NCBI RefSeq assembly: GCF_900114645.1
Contig: NZ_FOTR01000019.1
Span: 1 to 56,055, forward strand
DNA: 56,055 nucleotides
Source of the DNA: Gracilibacillus orientalis
GTDB lineage: Bacteria; Bacillota; Bacilli; Bacillales; Amphibacillaceae
Direction of reading: 5' to 3'
A model generated the notes under the pieces. It was given only the letters and a program-made list of their open reading frames with translations, was not told the origin of the DNA and did not search any database. Made by a program: the position numbers and the translations under genes. This document shows, piece after piece, positions 45,516 through 48,278 of this stretch (positions within the stretch are counted from its first letter, which is position 1; each line of letters starts with the position of its first letter).

Positions 45516-45959
45516 TCATTTTTTTCTAAAGTCTCTAAACACAAAGTACTTTATCATAAAAAAACTTGCTAAAGAAGATAATCCCATTGCGAGGCCTTTA
45601 GATAAATTATAACGCCACCAATTAGGTATTTCTATTATAGCAAACAAGGAATTAGCCCCCAAAAAAACAAGGTTACTAATTCCTAAACTAATTAAAGCTT
45701 GTATAAAAAAAGCAAATCTCTGGTAAGAATCTCCTTTTGATGCACGTTTAAAAGTGATCGATGCATTCCAGATATAGCTATTTAATATCGCAAGACTATA
45801 GGAAATACTATTATATACAATAAGGAGAGCTGTTTTTTCCGTATGAAACAACAGTAACAGTACATTGAGAACAGCAATATCAATCAGTGCATTACTCACA
45901 CCAATAATACTAAATTGAAAAAATTGAAAGCGATCACTCTTTCTTTTCTTTTCTCTCAT
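45516..45959 (-). CDS. GtrA-family membrane protein
   Basis: This is a 147-aa, four-TM protein starting MREKKRKSDRFQFFQFSIIG. The GtrA/DPMS family carries lipid-linked sugars or forms part of glycosyltransferase complexes. The segments FSIIGVSNALIDIAV and the final FMIKYFVFRDF are typical. Its start codon overlaps the sqdX stop (ATGA), so it is translated together with the sulfolipid glycosyltransferase. A role in SQDG handling or in coupling to the membrane is plausible but not known. Confidence 0.85.
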   Translation of the reverse strand: MREKKRKSDRFQFFQFSIIGVSNALIDIAVLNVLLLLFHTEKTALLIVYNSISYSLAILNSYIWNASITFKRASKGDSYQRFAFFIQALISLGISNLVFLGANSLFAIIEIPNWWRYNLSKGLAMGLSSLASFFMIKYFVFRDFRKK

Positions 45960-47098
45960 GAACATTCCTTCTTATCGTAGTCTTTATTATGTGATTCAAT
46001 CACCTGCTGATAAAAAGCTAAGGCTTGTCGGGACTGATCATCCCATCCCATTTGATGGATGTCTTTCCAAGCAGTTTCACCTAAGTACTTTCGCAATGCT
46101 TCATCTTCTAAACGCAATACGGTTTTTTTAAAGCTTTCCACACTTTCGGGATTATATAACAATCCGTGTTTATCGTGTTCGATTTGTTCCCGTGTCGGAC
46201 CACTATCAGCTGCAACAATTGGTAAACCTGATGCCATTGCTTCCATTAGGACCAAGCCTAATGTTTCTGTTGTAGATGGAAAAACAAACACATCTGCAGA
46301 AGCATAGGCTTTAGCTAATTCTTCACCATGCATAAATCCAGTAAACACGGTATTTGTACCTTGGAAATGTTGTTCCAACGGTGCGCGATGTGGTCCGTCT
46401 CCAACAATCGCAAAAACAAATTGGTCTGATTGTTCCAGGACCGTTCGGATCTTTTCTATTTCCTTTTCGGGAGCTAGTCTGCCAACATACAATAACAGCT
46501 TTTTATCATCCATCCCATTGGTTAACCGATCCCTCACCTTTGGATCTGACTTATCTGGATGAAACAGGTTGTTATCCACACCTCGTTTCCATACATGTAC
46601 ATCGTTAAAGTTTTGTTGTTCTAATTCTTCTTTCACCACATGTGATGTACACAGGTTAAGGGATGCCTTTTTATGTAATTTACGGAAGTACCACCAAAGG
46701 AGGCCTTTTAACATCGATAAATGATAATACTCTGCATACTTTGGCACCTGTGTGTGATATGACGCAATTAAAGGAAAATTGATTTTTTTTGCATAATACA
46801 CGCCGGAAGCTCCAAGCAATGCTGGATTAACAACATGTACAATATCTGGACTACATTCCAACAGCAGTTTTTTTACACGGTGATTCGGTAAGGCGAAAGG
46901 TTTAGAACGATAAAATGGCAACTTACGAGCAGGTAAGCCAATTACTTTCGCCCCTTCAAATTCACTTACTCCTAAATCTGGCGCAATTACTGTAACTTGA
47001 TGTCCGTTATTCAAAAAATAGCGAATACTATTCGTTAACCTTGTTACCACACCGTCCGTAGAGGGCAGAAATGTTTCAGTGATAATGAGTATGTTCAT
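45956..47098 (-). CDS. sqdX: SqdX-like sulfoquinovosyltransferase (GT4)
   Basis: The 380-aa GT-B, family-4 glycosyltransferase begins MNILIITETFLPSTDGVVTR and has HVVNPALLGASGVYYAKK, PLIASYHTQVPKYAEYY, LLYVGRLAPEKEIE and the E-x7-E motif in STTETLGLVLMEAMASGLP. The pattern agrees with SqdX/SQD2, which joins UDP-sulfoquinovose to diacylglycerol to make SQDG. It lies 31 bp downstream of sqdB, which is the strongest support for this substrate. Related diacylglycerol glycosyltransferases of GT4 are the alternative. Confidence 0.85.
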   Translation of the reverse strand: MNILIITETFLPSTDGVVTRLTNSIRYFLNNGHQVTVIAPDLGVSEFEGAKVIGLPARKLPFYRSKPFALPNHRVKKLLLECSPDIVHVVNPALLGASGVYYAKKINFPLIASYHTQVPKYAEYYHLSMLKGLLWWYFRKLHKKASLNLCTSHVVKEELEQQNFNDVHVWKRGVDNNLFHPDKSDPKVRDRLTNGMDDKKLLLYVGRLAPEKEIEKIRTVLEQSDQFVFAIVGDGPHRAPLEQHFQGTNTVFTGFMHGEELAKAYASADVFVFPSTTETLGLVLMEAMASGLPIVAADSGPTREQIEHDKHGLLYNPESVESFKKTVLRLEDEALRKYLGETAWKDIHQMGWDDQSRQALAFYQQVIESHNKDYDKKECS

Positions 47099-47129
47099 TT
47101 CTAGATCATCCTTATTTATCTGGTTCGAA

Positions 47130-48278
47130 TTATTTCCATTTCACTTGTGGTAAAATATTTTTCTCGATAACACGTTCTTTATAGGTCATCACAGTTTTAA
47201 GTATTTCTCTTATTACATTTTCGTCAAGAAGATACGGTTCTAATCCTAGATCTTTTAATTTTGTATTTACCGCTTGAAAGAAATGGTCTTCGAGCTCTAC
47301 TCTTGGATTTTCTAAATGAGCAATTTCCGTATCAAAGCCTTCCTCTTGAGCTACTTTTTGCACTTTTTCAGCCAATTCACCTACTGAAAATTGTTCGGTA
47401 AATTGATTAAATACACGGAATTCGCCATGGTCAGCAGGGTTTTTAGCTGCAATTTCAATACAGCGGACTGTATCATTAATATTAAGGAATCCTCTTGTTT
47501 GACCGCCTTTTCCATATACAGTTAAATCTTGTCCAACAGTTGCTTGGATAATAAAGCGATTTAAAGCAGTACCAAATACACCATCATAATCCAGACGGTT
47601 GGTGAGGACAGGGTCTAATTTCGTTTCGTCTGTTTCTAAACCGTACACGATTCCTTGATTTAAGTCTGTTGCTCGAATGCCCCAGATTTTACAAGCGAAC
47701 ATAATATTATGACTATCATGAACTTTGGATAAATGATAGAAAGAACCAGGCTGTTTCGGGAATGGTAATGTGTCCTTTCTTCCTTGATGCTCAATTTCAA
47801 TATAACCCTCTTCAATAGGGATATTAGGTGTCCCATATTCTCCAAGTGTACCCAACTTGATTAAATGACAATCAGGAACGATTTCCTTTATACCAAATAG
47901 TACATTCAATGTTCCAGTCACATTATTTTCCTGAGTGTACACTGCATGTTCTCTGTCAATCATGGAATAGGGCGCGGAGCGTTGTTCTGCAAAGTGAACA
48001 AATGCATCTGGTTGTTCTTTTTTTAGCACTTCTTTTAAAAAGTCATAATGTGTTAAGTCACCTTCATACAAATTGATTTGTTTTCCGGTAATTTCCTGCC
48101 ATTTCTCCACTCGCTCCTCTAATGAAGCAATGGGTGTTAATGAATTAGAGTGTAGTTCGTTATCAATTTTTCTTCGTGCATAATTATCAATAATTGCAAT
48201 TTCGTGCCCTTGTTTCGATAAGTATAGAGCAGTTGGCCAACCACAAAAGCCATCTCCTCCTGCTACAATAATTTTCAT
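47130..48278 (-). CDS. sqdB: UDP-sulfoquinovose synthase (SqdB/SQD1)
   Basis: This 382-aa SDR-type enzyme converts UDP-glucose and sulfite to UDP-sulfoquinovose. It has the NAD motif [11 protein letters not shown] (7-17), [12 protein letters not shown] (Thr144), [13 protein letters not shown] (Tyr181, Lys185, the T/Y/K triad of SQD1 numbered one higher) and [15 protein letters not shown]. These motifs are special to SQD1/SqdB and differ from GalE-type epimerases. SD AGAAGGTGGG. First gene of the sqdB-sqdX-gtrA unit. Rare in Firmicutes, so horizontal origin is possible. Confidence 0.95.

Follow-up and report, generated by a model that had tools for sequence, protein, structure and literature searches.

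The window, a stretch of 56,055 nucleotides from Gracilibacillus orientalis (contig NZ_FOTR01000019.1), carries sqdB, a GT4 glycosyltransferase gene and gtrA head to tail on the minus strand, at the positions given in a preliminary description of this DNA (Table 1). The 31 bp gap between sqdB and the GT4 gene was also confirmed. For gtrA, the longest open reading frame starts at 45965 (149 aa) and overlaps the GT4 gene by 10 bases; the ATG at 45959 has an AAGGA six bases ahead and forms an ATGA overlap with the GT4 stop codon. The start at 45959 has the better ribosome site, and it is with this start that the ATGA overlap described earlier holds. The arrangement of the three genes is not due to chance, because it was found again in many genera. 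The OsmC-family gene, which begins 46 bp beyond gtrA and had been thought a possible part of the same transcript, was present in just 8 loci, all from Gracilibacillus, among the best 80 of 564 relatives. This gene, a neighbour in Gracilibacillus only, was rejected as a member of the unit.

Table 1. Genes and features of the sulfolipid locus in the window.
Feature	Position	Strand	Basis or remark
sqdB, putative UDP-sulfoquinovose synthase, 382 aa	47130..48278	-	SQD1 structure match, NF041015 score, T144/Y181/K185
GT4 glycosyltransferase, 380 aa, proposed SQDG synthase (SqdX-like)	45956..47098	-	PF13439 + PF00534; paired with SqdB
gtrA, sqd-linked subfamily, 147 aa, four predicted membrane helices	45516..45959	-	PF04138, E 5.5e-15
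OsmC-family gene, neighbour, judged outside the unit	45077..45469	-	PF02566
Possible PhoP-type direct repeat TTTACA-N5-TTTACT	48379..48395	+	101-117 nt ahead of sqdB; regarded as a lead

The direct repeat upstream of sqdB, which resembles a PhoP box, is conserved in the Gracilibacillus relatives. When one mismatch at most is allowed, such repeats are present upstream of sqdB in 21 of 115 cases, where shuffled sequences would give 4.2; these rows are related to one another. The repeat is oriented away from sqdB, and a phosphate control of this gene is treated here as a lead. Promoter-like and terminator-like sites numbered 15 and 5, against 17.0 and 3.0 in shuffled sequences, respectively, and the only Rfam match at gathering scores in the window is an rRNA end. 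Positions 48440-49140, which separate the region upstream of sqdB from an ABC transporter gene, are a noncoding dispersed repeat with 97 matches in the genome; its middle part (~365 bases) has about nine other long copies, and a ~95-base palindrome is present many times. Almost the whole repeat can pair with itself, in the manner of a MITE, and it has no match in Rfam. Positions 49150-50716 encode an amino-acid ABC permease and a binding protein whose nearest models are those of cystine transporters, both below cut-off; a cystine-like transporter near sqdB would be a possible sulfur link. Genes encoding an exopolyphosphatase and a polyphosphate kinase (37900-41619) are located at a distance of a few kb from the sulfolipid cluster.

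The sqdB product aligns over residues 2-382 of 382 with Arabidopsis SQD1 (1qrr, 1i24; E about 1e-167 to 5e-167). The SQD1 motifs reported previously in this product were all present, i.e. GGDGFCGW at residue 7, T144, Y181 and K185, the last three being presumably the catalytic residues. In an alignment of 132 SqdB rows, Tyr181 and Lys185 are found in 132 of 132 and Thr144 in 129. The NCBIfam model NF041015 (UDPsulfquin_syn) gives 498.6 bits, below its curated cut-off of 575, while the second-best model gives only 52 bits. This cut-off is a naming rule and not a test of activity. The assignment of the window SqdB as a putative UDP-sulfoquinovose synthase is well supported by these comparisons; judging from homology, it would convert UDP-glucose and sulfite to UDP-sulfoquinovose. 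A PAPS reductase, which could supply the sulfite, is encoded in the same genome. SqdB taken alone was rejected as proof of SQDG.

We then investigated how widely SqdB is distributed. With a threshold of E 1e-80 or better, it was detected in 66 of the 299 genomes of our order sample. In Firmicutes, sulfolipid genes are common and nothing special; they are frequent in halophilic Bacilli, and the idea that they are particular to this organism was rejected. Among the best 80 of 564 relatives, the nearest named locus is that of G. lacisalsi (SqdB identity 94%). In the phylum sample, SqdB was found in 6 of 398 genomes, including that of the window. Two of the other five display the whole set, in the order sqdB-GT4-gtrA (L201) or gtrA-sqdB-GT4 (L200), and in the other three neither gene adjoins SqdB, with a contig end nearby in one case (L202). 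The order sample also contains a divergent SqdB lineage with an identity of about 46-48%, present in 17 genomes (L159, L161, L162-L164, L180-L184); the GT4 gene and gtrA adjoin it in some genomes, and in others the GT4 gene lies elsewhere and gtrA is absent. SqdB homologues also occur in 22 plasmid records, all with <60% identity, and at one locus in viral contigs (38% identity). Three plasmid SqdB regions each carry some glycosyltransferase gene, with a PAPS reductase gene adjoining SqdB in one of them; the annotation of these three stretches, whose gene tables are incomplete, gives no GtrA gene.

The second protein of the locus carries the PF13439 and PF00534 domains. Its nearest named NCBIfam model is that of GlcN-phosphatidylglycerol synthase (174 bits, cut-off 480), and the monoglucosyl-diacylglycerol synthase model gives 103 bits (cut-off 400). 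Against the former model, four other sqd-linked GT4 proteins score 157-176 bits and three paralogues unlinked to sqdB 167-186 bits. NCBIfam therefore fails to separate the sqd GT4 from its paralogues, since the score ranges are alike. The distribution of this protein is more informative. Counted at 416 bits or more, where the next-best GT4 reaches 247 bits, it is present in 66 of the 299 order genomes, 65 of which also possess SqdB, i.e. 65 of the 66 genomes with SqdB. One genome (G026) has the GT4 without SqdB, and in another (G105) the GT4 gene is in pieces. Among the best 80 of 564 relatives, the GT4 gene lies within 77 of the 80 named loci, the three loci without it belonging to Alicyclobacillus. 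GT4 is therefore a standing partner of SqdB. This near-constant co-occurrence supports a probable role as SQDG synthase, in agreement with the SqdX-type function proposed earlier. On the strength of the conserved pairing, the enzyme would transfer sulfoquinovose to diacylglycerol in the inner leaflet, yielding SQDG. In plasmid records, GT4 matches have <60% identity only, and a search of viral contigs for cyanobacterial SqdX returned none. As additional observations, one genome (G015) has a second GT4-gtrA pair which sqdB does not adjoin (L151 5110-6745), and another (G187) a tandem pair of sqd-type GT4 genes (L158 4805-7202) on a contig other than that of its SqdB.

The window GtrA matches PF04138 with 56 bits (gathering cut-off 26.1). 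In the order sample, proteins matching it fall into two groups: 45 genomes have a match of at least 70 bits, and the remainder do not exceed 43 bits. The sqd-linked GtrA proteins form a subfamily clearly separated from the ordinary members of the family. SqdB is present in 44 of the 45 genomes with a sqd-type GtrA (Fisher's test on 299 genomes, P = 7e-35, a value that overstates the association because the genomes are related). The exception, G233, holds a sqd-type GtrA without SqdB and, like the sub-threshold NCBIfam score of SqdB, counts against reading the locus as a sulfolipid operon. By coordinates, gtrA adjoins the GT4 gene in 39 of the 45 genomes; in G017 the two are divided between contig ends, and in the other five (G004, G013, G105, G201 and G233) gtrA lies away from the GT4 gene. 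The survey called for in the preliminary description thus gave adjacency in most genomes and no fusion of GtrA with GT4, the longest GT4 open reading frame being 422 aa. From the genes and their associations, we consider it probable that the three genes form a sulfolipid operon, in which SqdB and GT4 would make SQDG and GtrA would be accessory to the lipid step, most likely as an SQDG translocase.

GtrA does not accompany SqdB everywhere: in the order sample, 22 of the 66 genomes with SqdB have no sqd-type GtrA. Among the best 80 of 564 relatives, gtrA is in the locus for 22 of the 80 named loci. For the remaining 58, we searched 50 genomes for GtrA (E 1e-4), at least one of which, and probably more, also belongs to the order sample. 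A match was found in 19 of these 50 genomes, at 100 bits or more in 12, at 79-86 bits in 3 (Alicyclobacillus), at 55 bits in one and at 36 bits or less in 3. At the same threshold, 31 of the 50 genomes gave no match, including Salinicoccus hispanicus and nine Halobacillus. SQDG therefore cannot depend on GtrA generally, and genomes that lack this gene must do without its function. Comparative genomics lends real support to the third component first proposed, with GtrA as an optional partner rather than a fixed one. Two of the 12 genomes that match at 100 bits or more have a second sqd cluster, in which gtrA is accompanied by a divergent sqdB (L209, L212). The second cluster of Paenibacillus oralis (L212 1615-5369) reads GT4, gtrA, a patatin phospholipase gene and the divergent sqdB. 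In seven other loci (L210, L211, L213-L217), a few genes separate an unlinked sqd-type gtrA from a gene homologous to that of the SulP sulfate permease of L210; these loci appear syntenic, the Pfam scan having been made on the L210 protein only.

Alternatively, gtrA might simply have been carried along with sqdB and the GT4 gene by common descent and transfer, with no role in sulfolipid formation. A quick tree of 132 SqdB rows requires a minimum of 7 changes in the state of gtrA, a rough count because the state of the named loci reflects adjacency only and unlinked copies exist. The pattern thus largely follows the SqdB tree, and this, like the many SqdB genomes that lack a sqd-type GtrA, would suit a mere passenger. 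Such a passenger would hardly be expected in three different gene orders, namely sqdB-GT4-gtrA, gtrA-sqdB-GT4 (L200) and GT4-gtrA-patatin-sqdB (L212), with two SqdB lineages, or as unlinked copies retained in SqdB genomes. We regard this explanation as very improbable.

A role in the sulfolipid pathway would not in itself require transport. With SqdB and GT4 still making SQDG, GtrA may instead serve as a platform or activator in the membrane, keeping GT4 at its lipid substrate without transporting anything; a GtrA-like membrane domain may act in this way within dolichyl-phosphate mannose synthase. This enzyme is the only sequence match of the window GtrA among solved structures (E 0.0039). It is also the top Foldseek match (E 0.16, TM 0.42) of our structure model, which was built from 22 sequences and has four helices with a mean pLDDT of 75. 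The predicted fold fits the family and is silent on the substrate. We also compared protein distances in linked clusters, of which 49 were left from 60 after removal of near-duplicates. GtrA distances track GT4 distances (partial r 0.78), as a platform for GT4 would predict, this value being due to seven clusters that carry a divergent SqdB. When only the main SqdB type is considered (42 clusters), the partial correlation of GtrA is 0.66 with SqdB and 0.15 with GT4, which speaks against the platform. These correlations are a mark of co-inheritance and do not single out the protein that GtrA touches. The platform is further weakened by the genomes in which gtrA is distant from the GT4 gene and by the lack of any GT4-GtrA fusion among the loci. 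We consider it a rather unlikely second choice to an SQDG translocase.

To compare sqd-type with ordinary GtrA proteins, we took 12 ordinary loci from the weaker matches of the order sample. A GT2 gene adjoins GtrA in 11 of these 12 loci, and the two large neighbours that were scanned are PMT_2/YkcB-type enzymes. With four GT2-like or PMT-like proteins as queries, no such open reading frame was found at 95 sqd-type loci (partly overlapping, 3-15 kb), against 11 of the 12 ordinary ones. For the five unlinked copies of the order sample, ten neighbouring genes were looked at and no glycosyltransferase was among them. We also compared residues between 61 different sqd-type rows and the 12 ordinary rows, positions being matched to GtcA by spacing and not through a GtcA sequence. 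The counterparts of GtcA K121, F74 and F91 are kept in 61, 61 and 60 of the 61 sqd-type rows, respectively. By the same spacing, the place of N132 is Ser in 60 of 61 sqd-type rows and Asn in the 12 ordinary rows, and that of R95 is Ala or Gly in 60 of 61 and Asn in the 12 ordinary rows, so this last place varies among GtrA proteins anyway. In Listeria GtcA, R95 and N132 are both required for both teichoic acid glycosylations (PMC7389260).

These comparisons bear on a third possibility, in which GT4 would make polyprenyl-phosphate sulfoquinovose, GtrA would flip it, and an outer enzyme would load it on a wall polymer. A GT4 close to lipid synthases is an odd choice for making a polyprenyl-phosphate sugar. 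Such a route would suit the flipping of undecaprenyl-phosphate sugars that is attributed to other GtrA proteins (PMC7389260) and the location of the three plasmid SqdB homologues near other glycosyltransferase genes. It is opposed by the absence of a GT2-like gene at all 95 sqd-type loci and perhaps by the differences at the places of GtcA R95 and N132, as matched by spacing. Moreover, in the genome of the window we found neither a second GtrA nor YfhO or PMT_2, and the wall-polymer route is therefore less favoured. We judge it very improbable.

For GtrA, moving SQDG to the outer leaflet is thus the role that we favour, the platform for GT4 being the alternative within the same pathway; either function is inferred. 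As a translocase, sqd-type GtrA would do for SQDG what other GtrA proteins are thought to do for undecaprenyl-phosphate sugars. More tentatively, and with some doubt, the subfamily could be dedicated to SQDG, its cargo being a diacylglycerol glycolipid and not a polyprenyl-phosphate sugar.

Studies of GtrA proteins have dealt with them as carriers of sugars linked to polyprenyl, and the route of SQDG to the outer leaflet is, to our knowledge, not settled. As a companion of the sulfolipid genes, gtrA offers a test, in a simple bacterium, of both the sidedness of SQDG and the cargo of GtrA. If the proposal is true, GtrA would be the first protein proposed to put SQDG in the outer leaflet. The sulfolipid genes themselves are a widespread trait among salt-loving Bacilli, not confined to one species of a low-phosphate lagoon. 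SQDG is also known from Salinicoccus hispanicus and Bacillus acidocaldarius. The polar lipids of Oceanobacillus massiliensis include SQDG (PMC4062624). In B. coahuilensis, sqd1 and sqdX are described in strains m2-6 and p1.1.43, and all three strains are reported, with the data not shown, to contain sulfolipids (PMC4744853).

The operon is thus of a known kind, ordinary in halophilic Bacilli, and it is the link with GtrA that looks new: in the literature searched for GtrA together with sulfoquinovosyl or sulfolipid, no description of such a pathway link was found. Like sqdB-sqdX of cyanobacteria and sqd1-sqdX of B. coahuilensis, the Gracilibacillus locus combines a probable UDP-sulfoquinovose synthase gene with a GT4 gene. 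It differs from these pairs by the addition of gtrA, of which the available part of the B. coahuilensis report makes no mention (PMC4744853). The GlcN-phosphatidylglycerol and monoglucosyl-diacylglycerol synthases are the nearest named lipid-synthase models for GT4, which lies far under their cut-offs. Dolichyl-phosphate mannose synthase (5mlz, 5mm1) has a GtrA-like membrane domain with a weak sequence likeness and the top fold likeness to GtrA; it unites a GT2 and this domain in one chain, whereas the Gracilibacillus GT4 and GtrA are separate chains. Finally, the teichoic acid flippases of the GtcA/GtrA type from Listeria monocytogenes and Bacillus subtilis share with the sqd-type proteins the GtrA family and the counterparts of K121, F74 and F91. 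The sqd-type proteins differ from them in having, by spacing, Ala or Gly at the R95 place and Ser at the N132 place, and in having GT4 and SqdB, not a GT2, as partners.
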